Shown here one piece after another: positions 12,065-55,018 of a stretch of DNA of 64,000 bases (the first letter of the stretch is position 1; every line of letters starts with the position of its first letter). The DNA comes from Schistocephalus solidus (taxonomy: Eukaryota > Platyhelminthes > Cestoda > Diphyllobothriidea > Diphyllobothriidae). The notes under the pieces are model-generated. The model worked only from the letters and a program-made list of their open reading frames with translations, had not been told where the DNA came from and did not search any database. The position numbers and the translations under genes are program-made. The stretch spans positions 1 to 64,000 of the forward strand of contig WEDG01011594.1 in assembly GCA_017591395.1 (NCBI GenBank). The letters run 5' to 3'.

Positions 12065-12072
12065 TATAAAAA
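12065..12072 (+). promoter_or_regulatory. TATA box of the micro-exon gene
   Basis: TATAAAAA in a locally GC-richer setting, 34-41 nt before the predicted start codon at 12106. A TSS at the usual 25-30 nt would leave a 5' UTR of only about 10-15 nt, unless the mRNA is trans-spliced. Confidence 0.65.
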
Positions 12073-12105
12073 GCCCCGCTTGAAGAAGCAAAGTAAGTTA
12101 CCTTA

Positions 12106-12163
12106 ATGCAGAAATTGCTCGTCTGTTGTCTGTTAATTGCAGCTGTGTATGCCGCGCCTACAC
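12106..12163 (+). CDS. MEG exon 1: signal peptide
   Basis: Encodes MQKLLVCCLLIAAVYAAPT plus one base. It has a short basic start, a hydrophobic core LLVCCLLIAAV and a probable signal-peptidase site after VYA. The donor is GTAAGT. The ATG is the first after the TATA box. Confidence 0.88.
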
Positions 12164-15100
12164 GTAAGTGTTTTACATTTAGGTTTCATTCTTCAGACGT
12201 ATTTTGACTTGTCCTTTGCTTTTTGGAATTCGGCATGCTTTTTGGTTTAATGAATAATTTGGATACATTTTGATTCACAGCGTTAATTTACTCTTATACA
12301 AGCGAAATTTGATTTTCTTGTTTTATATTAAAATGCACTCTATCAAATACCTCAATTATTTAGGTTTTATGTTAGCTTTAACAGGAATTCACATGACAAA
12401 TGAACTCAAAGGAGTTGAAGATGGCAAAACAGCAATCATATAAAAGAAGCAGAAGTCAAATTTCAATGTTTATTCTTGAACACGCTGCCCCGTAGTTTTA
12501 ATCTAAAACAATCAAGTTGAAAATCAATTTTTTTGTATTTATGGCAGCCTGAAAATATATTCGGAAAATTGAGTAAATAATTGTAAAACATAAAATTAAT
12601 CAAAGCAAAAACTAATTTCATCAGCATATAAGCTTTTCTTTATAAATTGTAAGATGGACATCCCAAGAGGTATAATTAGAAGTTAAAGGAGTTCTTTAGG
12701 GAAACAATGAGTCAATTGATATTGTAAATTTTCGACGCTGGTTCCCCAGGTCGACATCAGTCTTGTGGTATGTGTACAAAAAACAGTGAAAATTTAAAAC
12801 GTTTTGAAAAATCGATATTGCTGAATTAGTCCTGTCAATAGAAGTCATTGAGGCTGGACATCTCAATATGATTGGCTACCGGCTTTTCCACTTTTCCTTG
12901 AGCTTGTTGTACACGGGATCCAATTAGATGTGCCGATTAATTAACTAGTCATCAGAATGAATGACCTCTAAATTCAGCATCTCTTCGATGGGCAAAAGCC
13001 AACAGTGGTCGATTACGTAGCTCAGTTTGTAGCGTATGGCAATCTGATCTGGTATCGTCAACTGATGTTTGTAGGCGTGAGACTGATTTTTCCTGTTTGG
13101 CCGCAATACACAACAATGTATTTCATGATTTTGTAAACGGCTTCTTTTTATCTAAATAGCCAACCCTATCCATAGGGTGTAAAGCTGTTTCGAGTTAGCG
13201 CCACGTAAATTTGTTGCTTCGCAGTGTCTCAACGAGTTCAGACACCTTCTTAGTATGAGTGTTCGCCAGTTTTTATTGTGGGCGCATGATCGGAACAATC
13301 TAGTTCTTACTTTTTTCTTTTCCTTTTAATTCTTGATGTTTCATGCATCTATGTACAAAATCTCTAGGGTAACCGTTGCTGGAAAACAGTTTGAATATAT
13401 AAGTGAGTTCAATTTGGTAAAGTTCCTTGGTAGAACAGTGGGTTTTTGCTTGATTGATGAGTGTGCTGACAGTGCTCCGTTTGTGGGCGACAGGGTGGTT
13501 GCTCTCATAATGTACGATAACATAGAAGCTAAATGCGGATGTTATCCTATATTATTACGAGAGCAACCACCCTGTCGCCCACAAACGAAGCGCTATCAGC
13601 ACACTAATCAATCGATCAAAACCCACTGTTTTACCAAGGAAATTTACCAAATTGAACCCACTTATCTATTCAAACTGTTGTCCAGCAATGGTACCCCTAG
13701 AGATTTTCTACATAGATGCATAAGACATCAAGAATTAAAAGAAAAAGAAAAAGATAAGGAACTAGATTTTTCCGAATATGCGCCCACAATAAAAACTGGC
13801 GAACACTTCCATGCATTAAGAACGTGTCTGAACTCGTTGAAAGACACCTGTGGAAGCACCAAATTTATGTGGCGCACTAAACAAAGACTACACTTCGAAA
13901 CCAGCTTGTGCACCCTATGGATAGGGTTGGCTATTTAGATAAAAAGAAGCCGTTTACAAAATCCCATGTAACAGTTGTAATGTTGTGTATTGCGGCCAAA
14001 CAGGAAAATCAGTCTCTACACGCCTACACAAACATCAGTTGGCAGTACAGAGACGAGACCACCTATATCAAGTTGCCATGCATACACTACAAACTGGGCA
14101 CAAATTTGCATGGGACAAAACGACCACTGTTGGCTTTTGCCCATCGAAGAGATGCTGGGAATTCTTAGAGGTCATTCATTCTGATGACTGGTGCATTAAT
14201 CGGCACATCTTATTGGATCCCGTGTACAACAATCTCAAGGATAAGTGCAAAAGCCGGTAGCCAATCATATTGAGATGTCCAGCCCCAATGACAGCTATTG
14301 ACAGGACTAATTCATCAATATCGGTTTTCCGACAAGTTTTTAATTTTAACTGTTTTTTGCACACTTACCACAAGTCTGACGACGACCTGGGGAACTAGCG
14401 TCGAAAATTTACATAATATAGTTACTCATTGTTTCCTAAAGGACTTCTTTACTTCAATATATATATTTCATCGCACTGTTTTAAAAAAGATCCCGTAAAA
14501 TAATGTACTATTTAAGCAAACGCTATTAAAGGTCAAGATTCTGGTAGCCAATAATCGTAATCTATGAACCTTGATCTTAAACATCTAAGGAAACGACGTT
14601 TTACTATCTGCTAAATTTCATTAGGACACGGTTTTTTAAAGAAGATAACAAATTTGAAATCGTAAGTCAGATGTGTACAAGGGCAGGTCTTTTTACTTTT
14701 CGAAATATTTGACAGCTCAATTAAATGAATAACTGTGATAAACGCCATCATATAAGTTATTACGTATCTGAGAAATGTTCGATACTTGTTTTACGACTTT
14801 GTGAAATTTTCACTGCGAACGTATTTCCACATTATTATAACGTCACAAAAGCGTGCACAAATAACTTGGAATACAGGTCCATAGAAATTTATGAATAATC
14901 TACCCTGTACTCACCATATTTTAGCAGCATTCAAAGATTTGTCCGTTGAATTGTTTAGCATTTAGAATATTTAAAAGCTTTTTCATTCTCATACCATTTG
15001 CAAATGTGAGTATTTATATGCTTGTTTTGTGGTAATATAAAAGATTGTATTAAAACAGTTACCAATCAATCAGCATGAACTTACATTTTTATCGAAATTT

Positions 15101-18100
15101 TACCTTTATAATGCTTCGCAAATTTGATTCTTCCAAAAAAGGATGAGTATTCCAGTTAACGTATCAATATTATTTGCAAAAAATCAAAAAATATATCAAA
15201 ACACCATCGGCATCGCCATTTACAACATTTTATTGCCTTATTTGTAGAAAAATCAGAGAAAAAACGTACGTCATATATATTGATGATTCCCACTGGTTGA
15301 CTTGCTTTTTTCAAGCAATTTCTTCATAACTGCAGCAGGCGAGCTCTGCTAGAAAATTTTAAAATAAAAGAAATTGAGCTCCCCAAAATTTCTCATTTGT
15401 TTATTTATTATCAGTTCAGTGCCGATAGAAAATTAAACTACAGAAGAAAAGAGAGAGCTAAATATGGTATTAAAAACTTCAAGGGAGATCAAAATGGTCA
15501 GTTAATGCATATGAGCTGTAACACCTACGCCTCTCCTATTTTGCATTTGAACACCTGGAATCCAAACAACGGGGAAATTTTAAACGGGGTTAGTAAAATG
15601 GACGAGGAGGGCTGTGAAATGCTCGTTGGGCCTTGGCAATGTGCGGGATTGAACGAGCGTCTTCTGTATGGTCACTGCCTCTGTCATCGCATGCATCAGT
15701 TTGCGTAGAAATTTAAACTGTCTCACCTGCAAAAAGTGAAGACAAGTTGAGAAGTTTTTTTCATAATTGCATTAGCATATAAAACCGTGCTTCACTAAGT
15801 TACGTTTCATATTTCAAAGTTCGTACGACATTTGAAACAAGTTAAATAACTTTTCAACAATGTTTGAAATGAGACCAAACTAGAAGATGTACGCTTACAC
15901 TGCTTAAACGTTTCCTGGTCAAGTGTAAGCTGTAATAGTTTGGTTTATGAAGGGGTAAATTGACCAACTGCGCTTTGTGCCACTGCCGTTCAGTGCAGTT
16001 CGGTTGAAATCCTGAAGTTTTTTCGAGCAGAGGCCATGTTGATACATTTATTTGCAAAATTATATTGTACAAGTCACCTTCTTCTTATACTTTCTCCAAT
16101 ATTCTGGACTCTATAATGAAACCAGGTTAAGGTTGATGAAAAGGAGGGCGTGCATTAGATGCAGCCGCATGCTAAACCCAATCCATATGCAAGTCACCGC
16201 GCTTGCTACTAGCCTGCCTGACCACATGTGGTTGAACTGTCACTTGAAAGCTTAACTTATATTTGACAAACCGATCTACAAATTGCTTTCAGAATAATTT
16301 TACAATCAGAACGGAGGGTATAAGAGGCATTATTGAAAGCAATATAGATAGTTAATCTTGCATTACCGCAAACGTATGTGAATGGTTTTGTTACAAACTG
16401 CACGAATTGATAACATGCGTCAATTTTCTAGTTCAAATTTTAATTAAAAGATACATTTGCGAAAGAGATAAAGTACAGTGGGAAATATAAGTCAGCTACG
16501 ACAGATGCTAAAAAATGTTTTGTTAGGAAAATTTAAAGGGTAGCAAAAAAGGGGAAATAGCATTTGCAGAAAAGGCGTACTTAAGGCGAAAGGCAGAGTT
16601 ATAATTTGCCTTGAGGGATTTTCTTATCACGTCTGCACAGAGTAAAAAGGCGCCACATGCACTAGCTTTCTCGTTGATGCTGCTGGTAGTAAAATAACAA
16701 AGTGTGTCTCGTAACCCACTTACTTCAATTATAAAAAGTTTCCTTAAAGCAATGCTTTCTTGTGGACATTCCGGTGACACCGATTGAATCACGGAAGCCA
16801 AAAGATGTAGTAAATATAATGCGTCTTGGCAAACAGAATGTCTTGCTGAAGCCATTCTGTATTTGAAATGTCAGAAAAATTTAAATTCAGTAGGAAACGT
16901 TTTTCTTTCATTTATCCCTTGAAAGAACGTTTACAAAGCCAAAAACACGAATAAATATCTTTCCTTAAGTGAAGAACATTGTGGTATAAACAATTCATTT
17001 GGTGGAATATATATCCATTAATATATTACCTATAATTTACATTTCAAGACCACTGTTCATGTGTTTGCTGGTCCATTTATTCATGCTAGTATTTTAAGAG
17101 GGAACTCACAGAAAATTTAAATATGCTCAATTATGCCAATTATGTTCCCGTGCTACCGTCAAGGAAATCTGGCAAGATTTACTATACTGTTTTTATTAAG
17201 TTAAAATTAAATATTTGTTTCTGCATATTCAATAAATAACCATATGCTGCAGATGATGCTAGATGATATTCTTTTTTTTGATTTTCTAATATCCAGATAG
17301 AATTTGGGGTATGTTTAAAAGGATAAAGCGTTTGCTGCAATGGAAAACAATCTAAATTTATTTGATTACACATTCAAACTTTAGTTAAAAGTAAACTTAT
17401 CTGCCCATCATAAACAATTTTGTGTTTATTGTTATTATTCATCAAACGGCAGATAAAATTTTATGTGGGTTTGCGATCAAAACACACTAAAGGCTTCTTT
17501 ATGCACCTTTATTCTTACATTCAGATGCAGTTATCACCAGCATACTCAATGGTAAGAATTAAACGAAACCTACTTGTGCATTGCTTAACTAGACGTTATA
17601 AATTCATATTCCAGTTGAAAATGCTAGGGGTTTATAAGACGAGTGTACAAAGGGGAAACTCTGATAAGAAATCAAGCAAACATCCAAAAATATTTGCGGT
17701 TCACTGCTTATAAGTTCGCATAAATATATCAGGTAGAAATATCGAACTTCGAAGCATTTAATCTATTAGCGGTCATCTGGTTTTTATATTTTTTTGGGCA
17801 CAAAATCGAGCGTCTTTTTTATGCGAGGTTCTTTATATTTTGTGACGAGATGTATATTTTCGAAATCGTTAGAAGTTTGAGTTCGTTGTAGCAATACATA
17901 TTTATCCGGGAGTACAGACTCAGCAAAATATTTTTGTCTTATCCTGCTAATTATTTTTATAAACCCTAGCGAAGTTTATTATTTAATAACAAGTACAATT
18001 ATAAAATTATGCTGTGCATGTTAATTTGCTTAAGAAATTCATCGTGATTTCAAAACCTGAAAGATACCTATCTGGTTTAAAAGTTAATTAATAATAGAAT

Positions 18101-21100
18101 TAATAAATAAACGCAAATTTTATTTATAAAATCGTCTATTAAGCGTAAAATAGCAGAAGCATGGGAAAACGTTGATACACAATCTTCGTTCTTTTACTAA
18201 CATTTATCATATATACATGTGATCTGAGCAAGTTACTCCTGCAAAAAATCATGTTCCGAAAAAGAAAATTGTCACTTTGTAATTGATAGGGAGGATGCGT
18301 TTCACACAGTCTTATCTAGGCGTGTTTCAAACAAGCTTACTGCGATAGAATTTGAATGTTCAACCAATAAAACTGCCCAATAACGAACCATGCGGTAGCA
18401 TTTTGACCGTTAATTTTAGTACGAATTCAAAATCTATATCCGTTTAATATGCCATCATTTATTTCTTGCATTCTGTGATGTGAAAGGTCGTCCGAGTTAA
18501 TTTTAGCACTCATATGTTTTCTTGCGTCTTTTAATGCTCATTAAAGTTAAACAAACTATTGGCGATTAAGGTCCATGCTGCACAATGACGGATACTATAT
18601 GTTGAGTTCGTTTATCTGATCATTCAAAGTTTACTCAAATGGCCATTTCGTGGAATCAATGCTGTTTTAGATGTGCCTATGTTCATAAACGTGAAAAACG
18701 ATGTTGCGGTATAATAAGCACTGAGTTTACTTCCTGTCAAAGTCAAGCTTGTCTAAACAGTTGCTTATGCTTTCTGACTCCACTTATTGTTAGTTCTGCA
18801 ATCATCCTCAAATATACGCATATTTTGCTCAATGTGCTAAAAAATACTCACAGACAATCTTCTTTCTTCTGAAGAACTGAATATCGATAAAAAATGTTTC
18901 CTACTATAATCACGTATGGCAATTACTAATGGTTCGTCTTGCAAAAAAGGTGCATTTGTTTTTCAGGCAAATTAAAGGATCTATGTAAGAAAGGATTTCG
19001 TTATTTGCGTCATGCCCAGCTACAGCTAGTGGATTTATAAGCTCTTGCTCAACTATTAAGCTACTGCTTTATGCAAATTTATACTTAATAAGAATATAAT
19101 CTTCTTTTTCAACACCTTCTCTTCAAATATAACTTAGAATTCCAGACATTCTTCTTAAAACATCCAAATGACAATTTGGTGAGCATACATTTGCTTTCGA
19201 TTAATTCTCATCAGGACTTTACACATTATTCGCAAGCGCATCTCAGGAATACTATTAATTAATGTACCCGTAAGTCCAAGTTACATTAAAACAAAAACAG
19301 GATGGATCGTTCCTTTTTCTGGAAGTGCTTTGGTGTAGAAGTTATGACGGGAATATGCGGCGAGGTGTCTAACGTAAGAAGACGTGGTCCGGGACATATA
19401 CCCAGTTTGGGAGTTTTTTACCGCTAAACTTTAAGTGCAATGTAGTGCCCTGTTTGACAGAAAGGCTGTAAAAAATCAGTTCTATCGATAGAATTGAAGG
19501 ATAGCTTAAGGTTTTGGAAACCATTTTTGACAGAATGTATATATTTATTGTTATGAACATGGCCGAAAGACCACCAAATCTTCCTATGTTAATGACGAGC
19601 AAGAAAAGACTTTTCATCAGGGATCCTTTTCAAAGTGACGCAGCAAGTCAAGTCTTAAGAAGGTGTCTAAGTCAAGGAAAAGAGAACACATGCAGGTTTG
19701 GTTAGGAGAGGGTCAAATAAGGACCATAAATAGCTATATTCTCGCGCAAATGGTAAACAAGTATCATCTTCTCGATATAAGATATGCCTTACGGGCAACT
19801 GACAAGGTCCACTAAAGTTTTTCTAAAATTTCTTGGACATCGTCTGTCGGTTATCGCAGAAGTGGCTGCAATCTGACTACGTAAACGATTCCTGTGCGAA
19901 AAAATGAAATGTATACAGGCGCCACAGTTATCGTGGCTGAAAGCCATCAATTAAGCCGCCCACATCTAATTACCTGTCCCGGCGGCCACCATTCTTCTGA
20001 CGATGATCAGAAGACAGACTGCAATTTCGATTCGTTCCTCCTCCCCGCCCACCCTCACAACCGTACAATTAGTTTGACTTACCCGCATATTTGACTTAGT
20101 TATACAGTGATATAAATGTAAAATCCTGACGAGAATTTAATATTAAGCATATGTATGCTTGCTTGATTTTATTTTGAAATAGTAATTAGTGAATTTTTAA
20201 GTTCACATGTTGATTTTCAAATTACAGGGAACAAGTATTTCAAAGCCAAAGGAGGTACGTTACTGTAACAAATTCCCATGCAAAAGTTATTGATAAAATT
20301 TTTCATTCTGAAAACGGTTCTACTCAATTTTCCCCCCAGGGGTCTTCGCCATATTTCAGACATTGTCAAAAGTGCGCATTACAGTTATTTCCTACAGTAA
20401 TGCAAATTGTCCAATTGTAAATATGTACTAAATGTCATTAAATGGGGTTTAAACCTGCGACAAAACTATCAAACATTAATGCACTATAATTTGTGCCTTG
20501 GAGATGGCAAATGTCCTCCTTGCTCATTCCATCACGCGAGTGAATAATATTTCGTAACTAGAGTATTCTGTTAAACCAGTGAAGAAAAACTCAAGAAACC
20601 ATTAATTTATGTCTTATTTCGAAACACGCATAAACTGACTAATCTGATGAATTTTGGGGCTTTTTGATCTTAATAGAACAGAAAACCTATTTTTATCTGG
20701 TATTTAAACACAGTGATAAAATGAAAAAATTGGATTTTAATGATACATGATTCAGATGTATCGATATTTCCGTAGCGCTTAGTAGTGAGTAGGTGATTTA
20801 TGGAAAGGATGTTTTGCAACCTGACACATTAAATTTTTATTTAAAATGCGCTTGACAACTTCCGAATATTTCCTTTCAGAGAAAGGTTTGATACAGTTTC
20901 TCAAAGGTAATCATTAACCATTTATATTACAAACCACAAAGCGTATAATTTTCATTCGATGTGACTTGCTTTTTATAAACTTTAGAGAATGGGATGGAGT
21001 TAGGTAAGATAAGATAAGATTAGTTTTTTTATAAAATGCATCAAGAAACCGCTTACAACGATTAATATTTTAGTCAAAGAACTGACCAGGATTTCCGGTG

Positions 21101-21939
21101 GTAATTTCTCCTTATGTTTTTCATCAGTCAAACATCGCGTGTCGTCAAAATAAAAGTTAAAATGTTAACTTTACCTTTCAGTTGACGGCGATGACATAGG
21201 TAATCACTCCTAACCATTCAGCTGGCATAATCTTAGAATTTGTATGAGTTATCTAAATACAAGTGTTATTAACAGTCACTCAATATACTTGATACCCTAC
21301 AGTTTGAAAATGTACTAATTGTTTTCACATTTTCCGTTTGACAGTATCGTTGTCAACAAATGTGGTGCAATGTACGAGTTTAAATTAAATTAATTATAAT
21401 TTGGGACAATTTAATTATTCCACCCTGAGTTACTTTATATTTATTGGCTCATTTTAGTCGTACTGGCAAAAATATGTACGTTATTTGTTGCCTTCCGGCT
21501 CAAGCAGGCTTCATCAAAATATTTTTTCCATTTTGCGATTTTATCTAACTGTGGCCTATGCAAATGATCTTAACTGACATGTGCACTTCAGTCACTAAAA
21601 TAACAAAGTATCTATATATATGTTTCATTTGATTTAGTGAGAATCTACGTTCGTCTTTTGTCAGGTATATAAGTTTCAGCATTTAACCAAATACTTAACA
21701 TGCATGCACAAGAATAAACTCCAATTCTAAAGTTTCTTCTTTTGTGCTTTTAATACACAGACGAGGAAACATACGCAATTGCTGGTAGGCGTAACGATTT
21801 TCCGAAAAAATCATAAAATCTTACAACGTTTTACTGATAAATTCTATGTTATCTCCAGGAGGTTTGCGATTCATGAGTTCCTTTTGCATTTAGGACTTTT
21901 CACTGGCCTCGGTACGTTTGCTGCTTAGTTCTAAAACTT

Positions 21940-21972
<33 letters not shown>

Positions 21973-24900
21973 AAGAGAAAGCACATATTCTTAGTGATAG
22001 TTTTCATGACCGACATAATTTTTCTAATGTCAATGCTTTTTATACGGTTAACATAAAATTCAGTTGCAATATCAGTGTATGCTTATCCTTTAGAATTGTT
22101 CGGAAATGATCATATTCCTCGCAAGTTTCAACGTGGTCATAGGGAATTATATGGTCAAATTAATAGTACCACTGCATAATTATAGTCAAGATAAGCCCAA
22201 GTGCTCGATGTGTGTTCTTTTTTTGTTAAAACGAATAACTTAAAATTAATAAAAAAACAGTAAGTTGCAATTAATCTACATACATAATTTTATATTTTCA
22301 CTTTGTATATTTAGTACGGACGATAATAATAATTGTGCGAAGTAAGTTTGAACAAACATTTTCGTTGCGAAGACAGAAAAAACATCGAATCGTTGCACAT
22401 AGTTCCTTGAAATTCTATTTTTGATTCATTTTATAGAAACAATGGAGCCAAGTAATTTCTATTTGACTTTAGACTTTAATTATCTAAAAAGAACTTACAA
22501 ATAATGATGGCATTTATAAATTTTATTTTTATTATTTTTTTCCCAATCAAAAGCCGTATGTTCTCCAAATCTTATATATTTATCATACCTTCAACTTTCT
22601 GTCTTAGATGCAGCATTTATGAAATACGTCACAGGTGAGATTTAATCCCATGAGATTAATTTTATTTTCGATAACGGAAATATACAAAACAAAAATTATT
22701 ACAGATGACATTGGAAAATTGGGTAGGTCCTTAATGTGGTACAAAATAACTTTAAAAGTATTGTTTTGCTTGCGTTTCTTAAAAACTGGCTTTTTTACTC
22801 ATAAGAGGTGCTTTTTATTTTTAAGCGTCAACCTTCGCCTCCCGCCTTTTGGGTTAGTCATATTTTGTAATACCTTAACTTTCATTGGAACCACACATGA
22901 TGAATAGCTTTCGAAATCACCTAAATAAATATGCTTATAAATTATCCAAGCCTGTTTATTCCTGGTATCATTTTTAATTAATTTCAGATGCCAAAAGAAT
23001 TCTTGGTAAGTTCTTTGATACCTTTATTTTTTTTAAAAGTAAAAACATTTCTATATAAATAAATATAACTGAGGTATCATAAATATCCTCCAATAAATAC
23101 AACATTAATTGAAATTAACTCCTACCTGAAACCTAGCTTTCAAATTTTGAGTGGTTTTTATTCAGTATAACATTCGTTTTGGTATGGAGTCATGCAAAGT
23201 GAAGGTCTTTCTGTCTTTAATATTTAATTCGTTAACTTCTTCTTGGAATGATTATTTAACTATGTGGCGTTATACTAGGATGCAAACTTTTAAAAATGCC
23301 TTCAATATTTATTCGAAGATAAGCGAATCACAAATTGTATCGCAGGAACGTCATTCATTACATAACTTCGTGGCTTTCAGATGGCTATTAATATTAAACC
23401 AAGACTTAAAAATAAGTGGAAAAGTACTGATTTGCTTGCATGGTTACAAAACTATTATTTTACTGCTTACAAGTGCTTTTAATTTTATACCGGATACCTC
23501 GTCTCACCTGTTAGGTACGTCACATTTTGTGTTACCTGATCTTTCACTGGAACCACATTAAGTGAAAGTTTTTGCAAACTTACATGATAAGATATACTGA
23601 TAGATTTTCCAAGCCTGTATTTTCCTGGTATCTCATTTCATTAATAACAGATGCGACTGGAGTTATCAGTAAGTTCTTTGATACCTTACTTAATTTCAAA
23701 ACTAAGATGATATTGATAGAAATAAATATTAACTTGAGGCAACATAAATATCCTCCAATCCATAAAAGATTAATTTTTTGCATTCATATCTTTATCCTAG
23801 CTTTTAAACTGTAAAAAAATTAATTCGCTATAAAGTCTGTTCAGGTATTCAGTCATGTAATGTAAACGTCTTTCTGTCTTATTATTTAATTCGTTTACTT
23901 GTACTTGGAATTCATATTTTACTATGTAGCATTACAATAGGATGCAAACTTTTAAGAAGGCCTTTTAAATTGATTCACGCATAATCGGATCACAAATTTT
24001 ATCACAGGAATGTCATTCATTATATAACTTCGCGGCTTCCAGAAGGCTATTAATATTAAACCATGACTTAAAAATAAAATGAAATGTATTTATTTCTTTG
24101 CGTGTTTTCAAAACTATTATTTAAATGCTTACAAGATTTTTAATTTAATACCGGATACCTCATCTCACCTTTAAGGTTCATCACATTTTGTGATAATTGA
24201 TCTTTCACTGGAACCACAAATAATGAAACGTTTTGCAAACCTACATGATTAGATATGCCGATAAATTATCCAAGCCTGTTTTTTTCCTTGTATCAAATTT
24301 CATTAATAACAGATGCGACTGGAGTTATTGGTTAGTTCTTTAATACCTTAGTTTCTATCATAATTAAAGTGATATTTAAAAGAATAAATATTAATATGAT
24401 GCAAGCTTAATATCCTTTTATCCATGCAAGATTATTTTTTGTGCTTTCAAATCTTAATACGAGCTTTCAAACTTTAAGTAATTTAATTCGTTATAATGTT
24501 TGTTCAGGTATTCAGTCAAGTTATGTGAAATCTTCCTGTTTTACAATTTAATTCGTTCTTTTGTACTTAAAATTAATATTTTTCTATAAAGCATTGTAGT
24601 AGGATGCAGACTTTTCAGAATACCTATTAAATTGATTCGCAGATAATCGGATCACAAATTATATCACATGAATGTCATTCATTGTATTACGTCGTGGATT
24701 CTAAAGAGCTATTTATATTTAACGAAGACTTAAAAATAACTTGTTAATATTCTTATGCCTGTAGGTCTTCCTTCCTTAAAAATTTGATTTGCTTACTGTA
24801 TCGCATGAATTTCATTCACTGTATTAAGTCGTGGATACTAAAAAGCTATTAATCCTAAACCAAGACTTAAAAATAACATGTAAATATTATTTTGCCTGTG

Positions 24901-27900
24901 GGTTTTATAAACTTTTTTTACTCCTAAGAAGTTCTTTTATTTATTTAAGCGGATACCTTCTCGTCAGGCCTGTCAAGTTAGTCATATTTTGTGTAATCTT
25001 AACTTTTCCTAGAACCTTATATGATGAATGATTTTTCGAACTTTCCTGAATAAATATGCTGATAAATAATCAAAGCCTGTTTATTCATGGAATCACATTT
25101 AATTAATTACAGATGCAGAAGGAATTATCGGTTAGTTCTTTGCTACCTTAGGAACTTCAATAACTAAGATCATTTTTATAGAAAGAACTATAAAAATGAG
25201 GCAACATAAATATCATCCTAACCAGACAACATTTATTGAAATTAAGTCCTTTCTCAATCCTCGTTATCACAATTCCAAGGGTTAATATTCAGTATAACGT
25301 TTGTACATGTAAGAAGTCATGCATCCTGAAGGTCTTTCTGTCTTTTATATTTCATTTGTTAACTTATTTCTGTTATAAATATTTTACTATGTAGCATTAT
25401 ACTTGGATGCAAAATTTTCAGAATGTATTTGCTATTAATTCGTTAATCACAAATTATATCGCAAGAACGTCATTCATTGTAATACGTCGTAGCTTAAAAA
25501 GGGCAATAACTTTAAAACAAAGAACGGAAAATAATTTGTATTTTAATGATTTGCTTGCGTTTTTTTAAAAACTGACTTATTACTCCTAATAATTGCTTTA
25601 AATTTTTTAGCGGATACCTCGTCTCGCCTGTCAGGTAAGTCACATTTTGTGTACAATTTTCTATCCCGTGAACCGCATGTGAGGAATAATTTCGCAAACT
25701 TACCTAAATAAATATTCTGATAAATTATCCGAGCCTGTTTATTTCTCGTATCATATTTTAATAATTGCAGATGCAAATGAAATAATAGGTAAGTTCTTTG
25801 ATACCTTAGTTACTTTAACAAATAAAAACATTTTTATAGAAAGAAATATTAATATGCGGCAGCAGTATTATCCTCGCATCCATCCAATATAAATTGTAAG
25901 GCAGTCCTCGCTTAATCTTTGCTATAAATCGTACAGGGTTCTTTTTTTCAGTATAGCTTTTGTACAACTATGAATTTTTGCAACGTGAAGGTCTTCCTTT
26001 CTTAATATTTGATTCGCTTACTAACTTTCGAATTACTATTTTACTATATAGCTTTATAAAAGGATGGAACATTTTTTGAACGCCTTTTATATGGATTCGT
26101 AGATAAGCGGATCAAAAATTGCATCGCATGAATTTTATTCATTGTATTAAGTCGTGGATATCAAAAAGCTATTAATCTTAAACCAAGACTTAAAAATAAC
26201 TTGTAAATATTATTTTGCCTGTGGGTTTTATAAACCTTTTTACTCCTTAGAAGTTCTTTTATTTATTTAAGCGGATACCTTCTCGTCAGGCCTGTCAAGT
26301 TAGTCATATTTTGTGTAATCTTCACCTTTTCCTGGAACCTTATATGATGAATGATTTTGCGAACTTACCTGAATAAATATGCTGATAAATAATCAAAGCC
26401 TGTTTATTCATGGAATCACATTTAATTAATTACAGATGCAGAAGGAATTATCGGTACGTTCTTTGCTACCTGTGTTTCTTCAATAACAAGCATCATTTTT
26501 AAAAAAAGAACTATAACAATGAAGCAACATAAATATCCTCCTAACCAGACAACATTTATTGAAATTAAGTCCTTTCTCAATCCTCGTTATCACAATTCCA
26601 AGGGTTAATATTCAGTATAACGTTTGTACATGTAAGAAGTCATGCATCCTGAAGGTCTTCCTGTCTTTTATATTTCATTTGTTAACTTATTTCTGTTATA
26701 AATATTTTACTATGTAGCATTTTACTTGGATGCAAAATTTTCAGAATGTATTTGCTATTAATTCGTTATCACAAATTATATCGCAAGAACGTCATTCATT
26801 GTAATACGTCGTAGCTTAAAAAGGGCAATAACTTTAAAACAAAGAACGGAAAATAATTTGTATTTTAATGATTTGCTTGCGTTTTTTTAAAAACTGACTT
26901 ATTACTCCTAATAATTGCTTTAAATTTTTTAGCGGATACCTCGTCTCGCCTGTCAGGTAAGTCACATTTTGTGTACAATTTTCTATCCAGTGAACCGCAT
27001 GTTAGGAATAATTTCGCAAACTTACCTGAATAAATATTCTGATAAATTATCCGAGCCTGTTTATTTCTCGTATCATATTTAATAATTGCAGATGCAAATG
27101 AAATAATAGGTAAGTTCTTTGATACCTTAGTTACTTTAACAAATAAAAACATTTTTATAGAAAGAAATATTAATATGCGGCAACATTATTATCCTCGCAT
27201 CCGTCCAATATAAATTGTAGGGAAGTCCTCGCTTAATCTTTTCTATAAATCGTACAGGGTTCTTTTTTCAGTATAGCTTTTGTACAACTATGAATTTTTG
27301 CAACGTGAAGGTCTTCCTTTCTTAATATTTGATTCGCTTACTAACTTTCGAATTACTATTTTACTACATAGCTTTATAAAAGGATGGAACATTTTTTGAA
27401 CGCCTTTTATATGGATTCGTAGATAAGCAGATCAAAAATTGTATCGCATGAATTTTATTCATTGTATTAAGTCGTGGATACTAAAAAGCTATTTATCTTA
27501 AACCAAGACTTAAAAATAACTTGTAAATATTATTTTTCCTGTGGGTTTTATAAACTTTTTTACTCCATAGAAGTTTGTTTATTTATTTAAGCGGATACCT
27601 TCTCGTCAGGCCTGTCAAGTTAGTCATATTTTGTGTAATCTTAACTTTCCCTGGAACCTTATATGATGAATGATTTTGCGAACTTACATGAATAAATATG
27701 CTGATTTATTATCCAAGTTTTTATTTACTGGAATCATATTTAATTAATTAAAGATGCAAAAGGAACCATCTGTAAGTTATTTGATACCTTAGTTATCTCA
27801 ATAGCTACAAAGATTTTAAAGAAAGAAATATTACTATGAAGAAACATAAATATCCTCCAATCCATACAAAATGTATTGTAATTAAGAACTATCTTAATGC

Positions 27901-28808
27901 TAGCTATCAACGTTTAAGTGGTATATACTTGGAATAATTTTTATCCAGGTATAAATCTATGCAAAATGAAGGTCTTCCTTTTTGTTATATTGCATTCGTT
28001 TACTTACACTTGAAATTAATATTTTGCTATTTTGCTTGTAGCTTCCAAAGGGCTATTAATAACAAACCAAGACTTAAAAATATATTTTCAAGTATTGATT
28101 AGCTTGCGTGTCTTAAATGTCTGTTTTGTACTCCTAAGAGGTGCTCTTAATTTTTAGCTGATACCTTTTCGTCAGGCCTTTCGGGTTAGTAACATTTTGT
28201 GTTACCTTATTTTCACTGGAACTGCATTTAATGAATAATTTTGCAAACTAACCTGAATAAATATCCTGATTATTTATCTTGGCATGTTTTTCCTGGTGTC
28301 ATTTTTAATTAATTACAGATGCGAAACAAAATATCGGTTAAGTTCTTTAATATCTCATTTACTTCAATTAATAAGATCAGTTTTAATGAAAGACGTTTTA
28401 AAATGAGGCAATATAAATATCCTCTAATCCATATAACATTGATTGTAATGAACTCCTCTCTCAATCCTTGTTATCAAACTTTCAGTGGTTTATATGCAGT
28501 TTAACTTTTGTACATGTATGGAGTCATGCAACGTTAAGATCTTCCCATCTTTAATATTAAATTCGCTCACTTTTACTTAGAATTAATATTTTACTATGTA
28601 TCTTGATAGTAGGATGCAAAATTTTCAGGACGTCTTTTGTATTTATTTGCAGATAAGCGGATCACAAATTTTATCACATGAATGTCATTCATTGTATTAC
28701 GTCGTAGTTTTCAGTGGGCTCTTAAGAAAAAAATACCTAAAAACCTTAGAAAATTTGAGAAAACGCACTTTGCTTCCTTTCTTAGATTTAACAATGACTG
28801 ACGATTAA
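12106..28808 (+). CDS. Micro-exon gene (MEG), secreted protein, ~30 internal symmetric micro-exons
   Basis: Predicted spliced gene. The first exon 12106-12163 encodes the signal peptide and ends one base into a codon. Internal exons: 17525-17551, 18967-18984, 20228-20254, 20340-20396 (less sure), 20880-20906, 20986-21003, 21074-21100, 21182-21199, 21458-21475, 21761-21784, 21894-21911, 22315-22341, 22437-22451, 22608-22634, 22705-22722, 22826-22852, 22988-23005, 23651-23668, 24313-24330, 24950-24976, 25113-25130, 25611-25634, 25771-25788, 26272-26298, 26436-26453, 26933-26956, 27092-27109, 27592-27618, 27754-27771, 28158-28184, 28319-28336. The last exon starts at 28786 and stops at 28806-28808. 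Each internal exon is AG/GT-bounded, 15-57 nt, divisible by three and phase 1 at both ends; no junction codon is a stop. The product is about 263 aa. This is the flatworm MEG layout, in which exon skipping yields many secreted variants. Schistosome MEG products come from oesophageal gland and tegument; the site here is unknown. I recognise no specific family member. Confidence 0.87.
12860..13190 (-). pseudogene. Penelope-like GIY-YIG fragment (left arm)
   Basis: Reverse complement of the right arm with more damage: the core still reads as a broken VYCGQTGK, followed by small deletions and stops. It shares the outward end with the right arm but has accumulated its own indels, so the two arms have not been recently homogenised. 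Confidence 0.75.
13850..14263 (+). pseudogene. Penelope-like GIY-YIG endonuclease fragment (right arm)
   Basis: The reading passes through HPMDRVGYLDKKK and, after a frame change, IPCNSCNVVYCGQTGKSV then TRLHKHQ, VAMHTLQTGHKF and SDDWCINRHILLDPVYNN. The C-x2-C pair before the Y-C-G-Q-T-G core (in place of GIY), the following R and H, and the late E/N region fit the GIY-YIG domain fused to Penelope reverse transcriptases. The upstream part (about 13333-13850) is frameshifted, and no reverse transcriptase core is visible. Not functional as it stands. Confidence 0.8.
14441..15396. other. Intron 1 sequence, nothing seen
   Basis: AT-rich intronic sequence. No phase-compatible micro-exon with good splice sites was found by eye. 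Confidence 0.4.
15412..15708 (+). CDS. Unrecognised ORF inside MEG intron 1
   Basis: Open frame of about 99 residues after a good acceptor-like 'tttatttattatcag' at 15397-15411, ending TAG at 15706-15708. It is GC-richer than its surroundings and holds cysteine/histidine-rich C-terminal motifs (GPWQCAGLNERLLYGHC, then CHRMHQFA). It is open only when entered in phase 0, whereas the MEG exons are phase 1 and would meet a stop here. It could be an exon of another transcript, part of an unknown repeat, or chance. I do not recognise it. Confidence 0.3.
   Translation, partial: QFSADRKLNYRRKERAKYGIKNFKGDQNGQLMHMSCNTYASPILHLNTWNPNNGEILNGVSKMDEEGCEMLVGPWQCAGLNERLLYGHCLCHRMHQFA
15709..17524. other. 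Intron 1 sequence, nothing seen
   Basis: Only short frames without recognisable motifs (for example 16523-16855 minus). No supported gene. Confidence 0.4.
17525..21003 (+). CDS. MEG micro-exons 2-7 (5' unique set)
   Basis: Exon peptides, with the junction codon counted at the start of each: 17525 HAVITSILN; 18967 GKLKDL; 20228 WNKYFKAKG; 20340 GVFAIFQTLSKVRITVISY; 20880 KKGLIQFLK (EKGLIQFLK if the 57-nt exon is skipped); 20986 ENGMEL. Sizes are 27, 18, 27, 57, 27 and 18 nt. Donors are GTAAGA, GTAAGA, GTACGT, GTAATG, GTAATC and GTAAGA. The lysine and hydrophobic spacing suggests amphipathic helices. The 57-nt exon has the best acceptor (C-run then CAG) but is larger than its neighbours. Confidence 0.78.
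21074..22451 (+). CDS. MEG micro-exons 8-14 (middle unique set)
   Basis: Peptides: 21074 VKELTRISG; 21182 VDGDDI; 21458 VVLAKI; 21761 YEETYAIA; 21894 GLFTGL; 22315 VRTIIIIVR; 22437 KTMEP. Sizes are 27, 18, 18, 24, 18, 27 and 15 nt. All have AG acceptors and GTA donors (GTAATT, GTAATC, GTACGT, GTAGGC, GTACGT, GTAAGT, GTAATT). Introns are as short as 81 nt. The isoleucine run at 22315 makes a short very hydrophobic segment. Confidence 0.78.
21947..21972. repeat. (TA)n microsatellite
   Basis: Uninterrupted TA dinucleotides in the intron after the exon at 21894-21911. Confidence 0.95.
22608..23005 (+). CDS. MEG micro-exons 15-18, transition to the repeat array
   Basis: Peptides: 22608 NAAFMKYVT; 22705 DDIGKL; 22826 ASTFASRLL; 22988 DAKRIL. 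Sizes are 27, 18, 27 and 18 nt. The last two are the first members of the two exon types that recur downstream: type B (A-D-T-x-S-S-x-L-S) and type A (D/N-A-x-x-I-I). Introns are 70, 103 and 135 nt. Confidence 0.85.
23491..23514 (+). pseudogene. Dead type B micro-exon (acceptor AC instead of AG)
   Basis: A 24-nt block reading ADTSSHLL in the expected phase, with a good GTACGT donor. The base pair before it is AC, where the live copies have AG. It is very probably skipped. Confidence 0.75.
24152..24175 (+). pseudogene. Dead type B micro-exon (no acceptor, internal stop)
   Basis: Same 24-nt block as at 23491 and same AC in place of the acceptor. It now also has TAA in the MEG phase (CTT TAA) and a weakened GTTCAT donor. 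Decay after splice loss argues that the intact exons are under coding constraint. Confidence 0.78.
24796..26116 (+). repeat. MEG superunit 1 (1.32 kb, four micro-exons)
   Basis: Exons: 24950 ADTFSSGLS (27 nt), 25113 NAEGII (18), 25611 ADTSSRLS (24), 25771 DANEII (18). Together they add 29 residues without changing frame. Donors of the 27-nt exon are GTTAGT, those of the 24-nt exon GTAAGT. Nearly identical to the next superunit in both exons and introns. Confidence 0.88.
26117..27437 (+). repeat. MEG superunit 2 (1.32 kb, near-identical copy)
   Basis: Exons: 26272 ADTFSSGLS, 26436 NAEGII, 26933 ADTSSRLS, 27092 DANEII. Offsets to superunit 1 are 1321-1323 bp at every exon. Exon sequences are identical; introns differ by a small number of substitutions and single-base indels, so the duplication is recent. 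Confidence 0.9.
27438..28720 (+). repeat. MEG superunit 3 (diverged)
   Basis: Exons: 27592 ADTFSSGLS, 27754 NAKGTI (acceptor AAAG), 28158 SDTFSSGLS, 28319 DAKQNI. The type A to type A spacing is shortened to 565 bp. Similarity to the array fades at about 28720, just before the terminal exon. Confidence 0.83.
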
Positions 28809-28945
28809 CCAGGTGTTTAACTAATATAGTAAACAATTGTTAATTAATGCCCCATAACAGAAATGCGGGACTGAAATTTATATGGGTGGCTTCAATGTCA
28901 CGATATGTGTAATGTGATTTAAATAAACAGGGCTTCCATGCAAAG
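28786..28945 (+). CDS. MEG terminal exon, stop and polyadenylation signal
   Basis: A strong polypyrimidine tract 'tgcttcctttcttag' (28771-28785) precedes ATTTAAC; joined in phase 1 this reads DLTMTDD and then TAA at 28806-28808. AATAAA at 28922-28927 would give a 3' UTR of about 135-140 nt. An upstream acceptor at 28748-28749 is also in frame (adding ENLRKRTLLPFL) but has a poor pyrimidine tract. Confidence 0.75.
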
Positions 28946-31900
28946 TGAACTGAAAATTCACATCAGAGTATTAAAAACATATTAATTTATTCCCATGTAG
29001 CCACATAAAATATGGTCGATAAAATTGAGAACAGCATCTGGGTGGTCTTCTTCAATAAGAACGGTTAAATGGTGCAAGAATAATTTGAATCGCCAAAAAC
29101 GTTCAATAACCGAATAAACAATTCCGGGATAAACTTCCTTTCTGCTGACATTTTTTTATTCTTGCTAATCAGGTGCTTTTATATCATGAATAACAACGGC
29201 TGAAATACCAAAGAAATGTATTAGTTCGTTATTGACTTTAAAATAGGATTTAATTTCCCGATCAATTCCATGAACCCATTTGAATGAATAATATGATCTC
29301 ATAACCTTATTTAAAAAGACAAGCGAAACTGGAAGAATCATTACTGGTTTTTCAGCCTTTTTCATTCGGCCATAGTTTTGCAGGCATAAAGGGCCTAAAC
29401 TACGGCATTTCGGTTATTCTGCGTTTAATATTGGCTGCTGTGCGGAGACTGGCGGGGCTCGAGAGTGAGCTCCAAGTTATGTGGCTAACGTAATCGATGA
29501 GCTGGTCTACACCACTTTTAAATAAGACATTTTCTTGTGAAAATGTCAATCCAACATATTCCAGTTTCTTAGTAAGGAAATTAACAATGATAAACCTGTC
29601 TTTTTGAAGTCAGAAGTCTGCTCCGTAAATAAAAAATGTAAATCTTTTAAAAATTAATTGATATAAATTACAGGCATTCATCATATATTCAACAGTTCAT
29701 GTGCAAAAATAAGCTCTATCACCACCTGTTGGGTAAATATTTTTCCTGCTATGGAACAATACGGTTCCTCTATAGATAGGAAAAATAAAAAGGCATATGT
29801 GCTTGAGGGTATAAGAAATGTTCGAAAAAGCCAAGCAAATTTTGTGAAAGGAACAGAAGCTTGCTCGGAACTATTGCAGATTGTTTGACGTTAATTCATT
29901 ATTCCATTAACACTTCCTTGAAATCCAGTGTTGAGCATTTTAATCTTGAGACACTAAATAAATTTTTTTCTTAAAATATATTTTAAAATGAACACAAAAT
30001 GTACTTATTTTATCTAGCGAGGAATACACATAAGTTTGAAATAATGTTCTTAATTTTTAACTTTTAGCAGCGGCTTTTAAATTCCCGTGGTAAATACCAC
30101 TCACACCTGAATTTTACATTCAGTGAAATACAATATATGGCCTTTGTTTTTGTTTAAAATTTTACCAATTGTGTACAATTTGTTTTGAAATGCCTCTTTG
30201 GCAAGCGCATATTTCCTGTCAATAAAGTTTTGTGAGTTCAATATATCTTCATAGTAATATGGTAAATAAATTGCGTATCGATAAGAAAATTATGGCATTT
30301 CGATAAGCCTCGAAAACGGCGTAATATGCAATATATTGAACAAATAAATGTTTAGAAATCCTATAAATGGCAAAAAATCCCTCTGGCATTTCGTAAGAAC
30401 AACTGATATTTAGTAATAAGAACCTAGTAATTCGTGGGACAACGCATAGCTTCTGAATTGTATAAGCCACAAGTTCGTACTCTTACCCTCACATCGAAAA
30501 TAAAGCATGCATTTCTACCACTTCCACACTGAAGACATTTGAGCCTCACAGTCTTCTACAATTATATACTGCTCTGACAATGTTTACATATGAACATATA
30601 CCGGACTGAAAACAAAATTTCCAAAATTAATATACGACTACCTACTGTTCGAATATGGTACTATGTGAAATTCCAGGCCAAGGCCAGATACCACAAATGC
30701 TTTCTTCAAAGTAAAATAAATTATTCTTCCTTCGAAATAGTTCCTAACAGTAATTTTGAAATTTCTTTTGCGCATTCGAAACCTTCTCAACGTTAACACA
30801 TTACACAGACATGTGGCGAGTAAACATGAAAGGACTTAAGCCAGAAGTGAATAGATTCAGGGAAATCATCGAAAATATCTCAGGTCGCTACCATCTACCT
30901 CATAAATTGGTTAGTAGAAAATATTTGAAGTTCCCATATATCCACGTGTTTAAAGAAAGCATAAGAGAAGTGGGCTTGATAATCGCTCCCCCCATTTGCA
31001 TACTCACGAAAGTCTCATTTATCTTATAACCACCAGCTTAAGCATCTTTCGTGGCTTATTCATAAAACAAACTTCTAGTTTGGTTTATCCTTTTCACAGA
31101 CGACATCTTCTGAAGCTAAATTTTGTGATTTTACATATCAATTTAGTGCCATCAGATTTTAAAATATTGCGTTCAGCTTCAAACTAGGGCATAAATTTAT
31201 TGGAACCCGTAATCGTGCTTCTGACTTAATAAGTAACTCTTCAGTTAATGTGTTATTAGGATGCACTGGATTGCAATTTTGAAAAAAACCAAGCAACGTC
31301 TGCACATACTGTTTGATGGGCGTTATGCGGATCGTTATCCGTGAAAATGTGGTCACCCGTGTGGGAATTTGGCATGATGATTGCTGTCCCACCTGGATCA
31401 CCGATTTTGGCATTGGAAAAACATGTTTCCATAAGCGTTCCACAGGTGGCGGATTTCTTTGACCAAGTTAAGTCTCATCACCGAAGGTGGTTTCGGGAGG
31501 TCCCAGCACTTTTCACTTGGGAAACCTCATGAACTTTTCTATCCAAAGGTGCATCACGCAAATTTCACTTGAGGTTTTGATTTCCTCAAAAGTATCCTTT
31601 TAGAAATTCAAAAAATATATACCAACTTTCCCTTAGAAGGTTTTTCTAACGGATCTGACTTTAAGTGTGGATGAGATCCTTCCGGCTAGAGAGAGAGTCG
31701 CTTCCTGTGCTACTTAACTGACACCCCTTATTGCAGGGGGGGCTTATTATCCGTTGTATGACTGTTTTGTGAATCGGAGTCCCCTTATTGAGGCAGCTGT
31801 GTGGCACCTAGCAGGAAGCTTCATAATTTAATATTAACTAGGACTGGCACTAGGTGTTCAAATCAAGCAAACTACACGACCTTTGTTCTTCAAACCCAAG

Positions 31901-40827: not shown

Positions 40828-40960
40828 GCTGAAGGTTAGGGCTAGGGTTGAGGTTAAAGTTAAGGTCAGGTCAGGGTTCGCTTCGAGGTAGGTTTAGGAT
40901 CGACGTTAGGGTTGGGGTTAAGTTACGGTTAGGGTTAAGTTTAGGGTTATTGTTATATTT
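40828..40960 (+). repeat. Degenerate TTAGGG-like repeat
   Basis: Repeated 'gttagggtt', 'ggttaag' and 'gggttgagg' words with many variants. Likely another fragment of the element at 39066. Confidence 0.65.
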
Positions 40961-53240: not shown

Positions 53241-54970
53241 GTTCAGTGTATCTCTCGCGTGGGTAGCAGCATTGTTAACCTACGAGTGCCACAATGAACC
53301 ATCGGTTTAACTTCCAAACAACCCAGACCTCGACCTGGTAGTAGCCTCATCATATAATGCATAATCATTTTCCCTTCTGATGCCCCAGCGCTACTACGTT
53401 GTAAACCATTGTCCTGTTTGTCAACATCGTTGGCTCGCTAAGCGGTTGTTTGATTCCAATCTTTATTAGGAGACAGCGCCAGTCGTCTACTACCCATATA
53501 GCTTTTATTGTTGTACCAGTTACTTTGACACAACTTACAGAGATGCCTATTTAAGACAACTGCAGCAAAAAAGCCCTTACACAGACAGAATATCACTCGG
53601 AAGTACGATGTGTTTTACGTCCAGTCTACCAAGCCTCGAATGTCTCAACAATCTCTTCTCGGCTGTTGGCAGCTTACACATCTAAGGATCTCGAGGTCAA
53701 CTAATGTCTCAATAAGTGATAGTAAAGGAGCAGAACCACTGTAGTTTCTTCCTTTGGCACAAACAGTAGGTTCATTTTTGAGTCAAAGCTTGCGGAGTCG
53801 GGCGGATAGGAAAACTCACCAAGCTCTTCTCTTGTGTCTGCTTTGTGGATTAATCCTGCACATCCGCCCCTCAGGTCGGCAGTAAATTGCTTGAGGGCAT
53901 TCTTTACGTTACCCAGTTGGAGATAACTAATTAAGTTCTGACGAAGGCGGCCCTAACCACCCCGCTGCCCCCGTCCCAGCATCTTCAAACTCACTACCCG
54001 CTCCTGTGGGCCGCAGAGTGGTGGGGGGTGAGGAAAGAGGGACGATGCTGGTCCCCACCGTATAATACGTCGTCTGCACAGAACCCGTAAGCGGCTGAAA
54101 AAGCTAATCTGCAGGTGCTCACGCATTCGATGCGGGAGCACGAATGGAGATGGGCACGCGTCGAGGAGGAGGTGCGGGTTGGGGAAGAGATCACGCATCT
54201 TCCCTCTTAAGATGGCGGACGTCACTGGAACCCCCCCCTGCCCAGTCCACTCCAGTCGCTGCCGCATAGGCCTCACCGCGGTTGTAAGCAGCTCTACGGC
54301 TGCAAGTCAGAGGATCTGGAGTGTGATTGGCCTAGCCCTACAAGTGCCGATTACAAATAAAGGGCTTGAGTGGCCAACGCAATTCCAGTTTTGATTCCAC
54401 GCTGTCATCTGACCGAATTGGTATCAGGCATAGAGAAGACAATACACTGTAAGTTCCCTTTATCCATAACAGTAAAATAATGATGTGCTCATCGCTATGA
54501 ACCGACTTACCAGAAAAGGGTTAATTTAGAACAAGGAAACTATTATTTGAAAGAATTATTTTTCTTGTATTCGGTCGTTAATTAAACCATGCTTAAAACA
54601 GGGATAGGACCCTAAATAACTAAATTCTACAACACTTAACAAAGGAAGTTAGTTAAAATGGGAGACGCTGCATAGCAGGTTTTTTAATCCTTCCCAAGAT
54701 CTCAAACTTACTAATGATCAGCTAAAGGAACACAATGGCTAAATTATGTAGCTACCAGTCTTTTCAAGACGTAAACATGTCACTTAAAAAAGGACTGCGT
54801 AAGGCTGTTAGATCCAAAGTTCATCCCTCCTGTTCTTCAGATGGAGAGCTCATGTGGACAACTGTTCACTAAATATGAGGGTACACTCTTGGATTAAGAC
54901 ATCTTGAAAGACATGCCTTCCGGTAAAGCACTCGCCGGTTTTTTACCTTCCTATATAATTTTTTTTACCT
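53241..54970. other. No gene; GC-rich patch
   Basis: About 53940-54310 is GC-rich with overlapping frames on both strands (53953-54276 minus, 54179-54394 plus) of low-complexity Arg/Ser/Pro. Possibly an old repeat, or regulatory DNA of the downstream homeobox gene. Nothing decisive. Confidence 0.35.
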
Positions 54971-55018
54971 CAGTTTGTTCCCTTTTGTTTATCATGTTTA
55001 TTAGATCTAAGCTCAAGG

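Follow-up and report, generated by a model that had tools for sequence, protein, structure and literature searches.

The 64,000-nucleotide stretch of the Schistocephalus solidus genome analysed here (the window; contig C7027 of the assembly) very probably carries an intact, protein-coding gene of the flatworm micro-exon gene (MEG) type, belonging to a diphyllobothriid tapeworm. The gene model spans positions 12106–28808 on the plus strand and comprises a 58-nt signal-peptide-like exon, 32 micro-exons of 15–27 nt and a 23-nt terminal exon, 34 exons in total, which join without a stop to encode 262 amino acids. All 33 predicted introns are in phase 1, interrupting a codon after its first base. 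Lengths divisible by three are found in 32 of the 34 exons, which form a single run; the two exceptions are the end exons, with coding parts of 58 nt in exon 1 and 23 nt in exon 34. The original prediction for this locus had proposed about 31 blocks of 15–57 nt and a product of about 263 residues assembled from cassettes of 5–19 residues. The lower size limit of 15 nt and the product size were close to the mark, whereas no micro-exon above 27 nt was accepted, the cassettes measure 5–9 codons and 32 micro-exons are now counted, a number that is uncertain by a few. The borders proposed at the time (AG before and GT after each block, length divisible by three, phase 1, no stop) hold for the accepted micro-exons, and a second genomic copy agrees with them.

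The initial list of 31 exons was made by eye with the reading frame in mind and was thus possibly biased, so that the following tests were designed to avoid or lessen this bias. When blocks were defined by splice score only, the strictest setting in the region 17400–28900 (plus strand) gave 13 blocks, 12 of which were multiples of three; all 12 were open in phase 1 and 11 belong to the by-eye list. Five control strands and regions yielded 17 multiples of three among 48 blocks at the same setting. Looser settings gave 17/21, 22/30 and 30/42, with the controls remaining near one third.

Moreover, the best phase-1 chain of blocks found by dynamic programming scored 118.3, against a mean of 6.8 and a maximum of 19.7 in 100 dinucleotide shuffles. 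This chain holds 30 blocks, 25 of them from the by-eye list, with six listed exons unpicked and five extra blocks. For the unrepeated part alone (17400–22740), the score was 55.4, compared with a mean of 4.2 and a maximum of 26.4 in 200 shuffles. Chains built from lengths of 1 or 2 modulo 3 on the same strand reached at most 12.1, and chains on the opposite strand at most 38.2; the opposite-strand controls for blocks and chains led us to reject a gene on the minus strand. Phases 0 and 2 scored high as well (85.4 and 96.6), a consequence of short blocks frequently being open in more than one phase. The best score was nevertheless that of phase 1, the phase at the end of exon 1.

A third line of evidence comes from the second genomic copy, described below. 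The uncertainty of the exon count shows in the blocks kept in both copies between 12.2 and 23.7 kb. There are 23 of these: 15 are in the by-eye list, one (21345) was then added, three represent other acceptors of exons already listed, and four remain uncounted (12750, 15248, 17297 and 19326). The simplest objection to the gene is that AG..GT blocks arise by chance in AT-rich repeats. Short blocks are indeed easily open, many of them in two or three phases, and a few uncounted blocks likewise persist in both copies. Yet the shuffle, length-class, strand and between-copy controls all contradict this explanation, which we consider extremely improbable and in practice refuted by the chain test. 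The proposal of a real gene of about thirty in-phase micro-exons thus withstood both the chain test and the strict block test. No known RNA family was found at gathering score.

Exon anatomy and the 5′ end

Exon 1 (12106–12163, plus strand, as are all features of the gene) contains the start codon and ends in phase 1; inspection by eye suggests a hydrophobic leader with a plausible site for cleavage. A TATA-like box, also read by eye, lies upstream at 12065–12073, and transcription would start near 12.1 kb. The micro-exons fall into four length classes (18 nt, n = 15; 27 nt, n = 13; 24 nt, n = 3; 15 nt, n = 1), and the introns have a median of 145 nt.

Micro-exons 2 to 8 lie at 17525–17551 (27 nt), 18967–18984 (18 nt), 20228–20254 (27 nt), 20880–20906 (27 nt), 20986–21003 (18 nt), 21074–21100 (27 nt) and 21182–21199 (18 nt). 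They are followed by micro-exon 9 (21345–21371, 27 nt), which came from the chain search and was absent from the by-eye list, and by micro-exons 10 to 17 at 21458–21475 (18 nt), 21638–21664 (27 nt), 21761–21784 (24 nt), 21894–21911 (18 nt), 22315–22341 (27 nt), 22437–22451 (15 nt), 22608–22634 (27 nt) and 22705–22722 (18 nt). The second half begins with micro-exons 18 and 19 at 22826–22852 (27 nt) and 22988–23005 (18 nt), then 20 and 21 at 23651–23668 and 24313–24330 (18 nt each), and 22 to 25 at 24950–24976 (27 nt), 25113–25130 (18 nt), 25611–25634 (24 nt) and 25771–25788 (18 nt). Micro-exons 26 to 29 occupy 26272–26298 (27 nt), 26436–26453 (18 nt), 26933–26956 (24 nt) and 27092–27109 (18 nt), and 30 to 33 occupy 27592–27618 (27 nt), 27754–27771 (18 nt), 28158–28184 (27 nt) and 28319–28336 (18 nt, with a weak donor). 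Exons 25 and 29 are open in phase 1 only. The terminal exon 34 (28786–28808) ends in TAA and has a counterpart at 28947–28969 of C1736rc; an AATAAA polyadenylation signal, read by eye, follows 114 nt beyond it (28922–28927).

Donor scores of the blocks spread widely, from –3.4 to 8.8. Exons 2 and 16 each have a second, in-frame acceptor 6 nt from their start (17531 and 22614), and both acceptors are kept in the second copy on contig C1736; the 22614 pick of the chain search is this alternative acceptor of exon 16 and no separate exon. Exons 23 and 27 also start with ATGCAG directly after the AG.

Several candidates were left out of the model. A possible extra 12-nt micro-exon at 17297–17308 has strong sites in both copies, and in the more distant relative on contig C5223 it keeps AG and GT and has an internal stop; it is uncounted. 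A 72-nt form of exon 4, using an upstream acceptor at 20183, was seen and not accepted. The 33-nt block at 19144–19176 has AG/GT borders and a phase-1 stop, and the 39-nt block at 19326–19364, also picked by the chain search, sits within a transposon-like repeat, and its sites in C1736 are weak. Two further picks of the chain search stand outside the accepted list: 20360–20371, which is missing from the blocks kept in both copies, and 28486–28515. Block 12750–12767 is kept in both copies and was left uncounted because it lies inside the inverted repeat of intron 1, while 15248–15265, likewise kept, was omitted on judgement only.

Intron 1 measures 5,361 nt, by far the longest, and contains at 12671–14455 an inverted repeat of coding-like sequence that we take, by eye, to resemble a Penelope-like element with a GIY-YIG end; Pfam returned nothing for its open reading frame at 13330–13935. 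Both the length of this intron and its mobile-element-like repeat would fit a separate short secreted-peptide gene at exon 1, the micro-exon gene having another 5′ end. However, exon 1 shares its end phase with the other exons, the C1736 counterpart is identical in 58 of 58 positions and precedes the same exons in the same order, and introns of S. mansoni MEGs reach 5 kb (PMC10526429). Two separate genes are accordingly very unlikely, on a search for other signal exons that was not exhaustive. Within intron 3 of the single gene that we favour lies the transposon-like repeat noted above (19155–20198), with shared ends in opposite orientation. The genome holds it in abundance (1500 candidates at first look, 40 of them scored), and matches over it occur in C7027, C1736 and C5223.

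Copies of the gene in the assembly

The assembly searched for copies holds 603,688,359 bases in 8,019 contigs. Contig C1736 carries a collinear copy, 91% identical, with collinearity extending over 9.5–57.8 kb and mostly 90–96% identity outside the tandem array described below. Nineteen exons could be compared in its first part: the donor GT is present in 19/19, the acceptor AG in 18/18 internal exons and the length is kept in 18/19. Between the window and C1736, identity is 96.7% in exons, 95.5% in splice flanks and 92.2% elsewhere, and gap columns make up 0.2%, 0.3% and 2.1%, respectively. Among 17 exon differences (exon 21345 included), the predicted frame makes nine synonymous and seven non-synonymous, with one in the uncounted last codon; the other two frames give 3/14 and 1/15 synonymous/non-synonymous. 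Random placement matched the synonymous count in 1.5% of 20,000 trials (permutation P 0.015). The ratio of non-synonymous to synonymous divergence (dN/dS) is 0.23 between the window and C1736, and 0.25 between the window and the internal second copy of C1736. These figures point to selection on the predicted frame. Together with the splice sites kept in the second copy, they make the flatworm MEG type, as originally suggested, the best reading of the locus.

C1736 in fact holds two partial copies, over which our scan found 58 exon-like micro-blocks, 54 of them passing for AG, GT and open frame; a block resembling exon 21345 was one more in each of the two. Array exons allow no one-to-one pairing between the window and C1736. 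A second copy of 13570–15718 stands directly before the second partial gene copy of C1736. As to whether C1736 is a haplotype or a segmental duplicate, the copy is collinear, but the 53–58 kb stretch is also found on C1045, and PGK turned up on a single contig. A 429-codon frame at 54959–56245, with no Pfam match, lies in a region also present on C1736 (97%) and C1045 (97%), and this segment therefore exists in three copies; the gene itself is on C7027, on C1736 and, decayed, on C5223.

The relative on C5223 is 72% identical over 15.7–22.9 kb; the search found one array unit there at most and nothing matching exon 1. Across 16 micro-exon positions compared, AG and GT are both kept in 6/16, and a stop lies inside 5/16. 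Exon identity is 81.7% for 3 exons and 70.0% for the other 13, against 74.0% and 74.8% in their surroundings. This relative behaves like a pseudogene. Its decay, like the broken array copies in the window and in C1736, might suggest that the window gene too is a relic, a former micro-exon gene now unexpressed or giving only truncated RNA. Against this stand the joining of all window exons without a stop and the dN/dS of 0.23 against C1736, and we regard a relic as improbable to a high degree. An intact gene under constraint remains our preferred reading.

Tandem array and predicted product

The 3′ third of the gene consists of a tandem array of units of about 660 bp (22743–28818, plus strand), most of which contain a 24/27-nt exon and an 18-nt exon. 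A higher-order unit with the exon order 27+18+24+18, about 1,322 bp long, occurs twice in the window, with stretches that are 99% identical, whereas the second array of C1736 holds four such modules by exon order. Between the introns of the duplicated exon pairs homology can still be recognised, at identities ranging from 99% to about 60–70%. Thus the 3′ third grew by tandem duplication of modules, each bringing an exon pair with it, and the module number is not the same in the two copies of the locus. The array had gone unmentioned in the original prediction, which leaned on the independence of its blocks; beyond about 22.7 kb they are copies of one another and hence not independent.

An alignment of 26 array units from both contigs shows what has been kept. 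The 18-nt exon has no gaps, compared with 3.3% in the rest, and its donor (92.6%) and acceptor (81.4%) are more alike than the rest of the unit (70.6%). Length and splice sites of this exon are kept while its letters drift, and the contrast for the 24/27-nt exon is weak. This pattern would be expected if the system of cassettes mattered more to the worm than any single one.

The mature part of the predicted product is acidic (isoelectric point 4.8) and without cysteine. Pfam gave no family above cut-off (best FIVAR, 16.8 bits against a cut-off of 29.2), and solved structures gave no convincing relative of the 262 residues (best E 0.56). A search of a protein database that names UniRef and nr among its sources returned no match at E 0.01 among the 7,992 candidates scored, those sharing the most words; for the first 155 residues, 58 candidates included no match at E 0.1. 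These protein searches likewise revealed no similarity to the named MEG families (MEG-1 to MEG-32), although fast evolution can hide kinship.

Hydrophobicity has a period of 3.70 across all cassettes, reached by 1 of 1000 shuffles, and of 3.65 in the array cassettes, reached by none of 1000. Periods near 3.65–3.8 suggest an amphipathic helix. The cassettes mostly alternate between nine and six residues, a pair spanning about four helical turns, which likewise suggests that the product is probably a series of amphipathic helix segments. We infer that splicing would bring together the signal-peptide exon, as many as about 32 cassettes in phase and the short last exon, giving a secreted acidic protein, a run of helix segments probably acting outside the worm's cells. 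By what is reported for schistosome MEGs, it may face the host.

Some of the evidence weighs against an intact gene built in this way. The letters of the 18-nt array exon are hardly more conserved than the rest (72.4% against 70.6%; window rank 283/614), and third codon positions are not favoured in it. The 24/27-nt array exon is 77.2% identical, its splice flanks reach only 76.3–77.2%, and its acceptor shows 5.2% gaps. Copies of the 24-nt exon with AC in place of the acceptor AG occur twice in the window and twice in C1736, and one 27-nt copy in C1736 reads AA at that position. Exon 17 has one extra base at its donor in the first C1736 copy, and the two partial copies within C1736 differ by three synonymous and eight non-synonymous changes, with no sign of constraint. 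For the helix, the non-array period of 3.79 is a modest signal, reached by 39 of 1000 shuffles, and the moments of the cassettes share a direction weakly (R 0.21 over 32 cassettes, 0.44 over the first 19). The two defective 24-nt copies of the window, both left uncounted, are 23491–23514, which lacks the acceptor AG, a loss that C1736 shares, and 24152–24175, which lacks it and has a stop.

Since all introns are in phase 1, the frame would survive the omission of any set of cassettes as well as the use of a second in-frame acceptor. This invites the tentative idea of a device with two levels, in which unequal exchange would change the number of four-exon modules of about 1,322 bp in the germ line and in-phase skipping would multiply the variants in the soma. 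If so, copies or haplotypes would encode different numbers of 29-residue helix units; skipping a 9+6 pair would roughly keep the helical face, while skipping a single cassette would turn it, and the surface shown to the host could be tuned. We think this device rather doubtful, in part because the cassette moments share their direction weakly. Just as doubtful, in our view, is constitutive splicing, in which every transcript would carry every cassette and the symmetry of phase 1 would stem only from exon duplication. Tandem duplication of exons would need symmetric phase-1 exons in any case, and both copies keep most splice sites; by contrast, the range of donor strengths, the in-frame second acceptors of exons 2 and 16 and the exon skipping reported for S. 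mansoni MEGs (PMC4015677) speak against it.

Further away in the window, a short repeat at 40905–40941 has a 17-base unit with TTAGGG and is possibly an interstitial telomere-like stretch. The cox1 of the genome forms an open frame with both mitochondrial table 5 and table 9, and reading AAA as asparagine (table 9) agrees, by eye, with the named tapeworm protein at the AAA codons. Its closest named matches among the best 120 of 7,998, which are cluster representatives at 90%, are Dibothriocephalus dendriticus (94%), Spirometra erinaceieuropaei (88%) and a Diphyllobothriidae entry (85%), and this comparison places the worm in Diphyllobothriidae. Mitochondrial-like contigs with cox1 are C6369, C1080 and C5997 (L042, L043 and L044) and also C589, C7083, C6182 and C5619. 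C1080 shows differences close to the 3′ end of cox1; broken copies lie on C5997, C7083, C6182 and C5619. These several contigs may represent nuclear copies, heteroplasmy or assembly errors.

Comparison with known micro-exon genes

Hymenolepis microstoma and Echinococcus multilocularis, the tapeworms considered here for comparison, belong to the order Cyclophyllidea. Structurally, the S. solidus gene has the features by which PMC7653826 recognises MEGs, including at least seven exons (34 predicted). The same source counts 52 MEGs in H. microstoma and 35 in E. multilocularis by these structural features, in other tapeworm lineages than that of S. solidus. The motif that it quotes for a ten-gene cluster of H. 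microstoma bears no resemblance to exon 1, in a comparison made by eye only.

The MEGs of S. mansoni have 10–20 exons, mostly of 15 nt (PMC10526429), introns of about 100 nt to 5 kb and a small secreted product with no known domain (PMC10526429, PMC4413821). The gene described here resembles them in its leader exon, its many tiny exons divisible by three, its range of intron sizes, its small, putatively secreted product and the absence of a known domain. It differs in having 34 exons, mostly of 18 and 27 nt, and end exons of only 58 and 23 coding nt, and the protein searches found no sequence relative. The exon number, placed at the high end in the original prediction, is indeed high beside these genes, but SmVAL6 has 38 exons (PMC4015677). 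SmVAL6, however, includes four larger exons with conserved motifs, which are absent here.

MEG-26 genes of schistosomes encode a signal peptide and a predicted amphipathic helix, and show internal duplication as a repeated pattern of exon lengths (PMC5825161). In three named members a motif recurs in tandem, whereas here exon pairs have been duplicated many times and intron homology is visible; no sequence kinship between the two was detected. MEG-4, or antigen 10.3, of S. mansoni has tandemly repeated exons according to the title of Davis 1988, and its repeats of 81 bases are unlike the cassettes here. Each feature thus has a precedent, and their combination with a long, recognisable array of exon pairs was not found described in the literature searched. 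That literature yielded no text pairing 'micro-exon' with 'Schistocephalus', and a second search for diphyllobothriid MEGs showed no use of 'micro-exon' among the 20 matches listed of 189. Along with the search of the joined peptide, which found no protein relative, this fits the earlier view that the gene is probably undescribed.

The curation of MEGs across flatworms has been named a high priority (PMC7653826), and duplication and shuffling of micro-exons have been weighed as their origin (PMC5825161). The array bears on this origin: the intron homology of the duplicated pairs is still recognisable, and the growth of the gene can therefore be followed step by step. A decayed relative that lacks the array is present on C5223.

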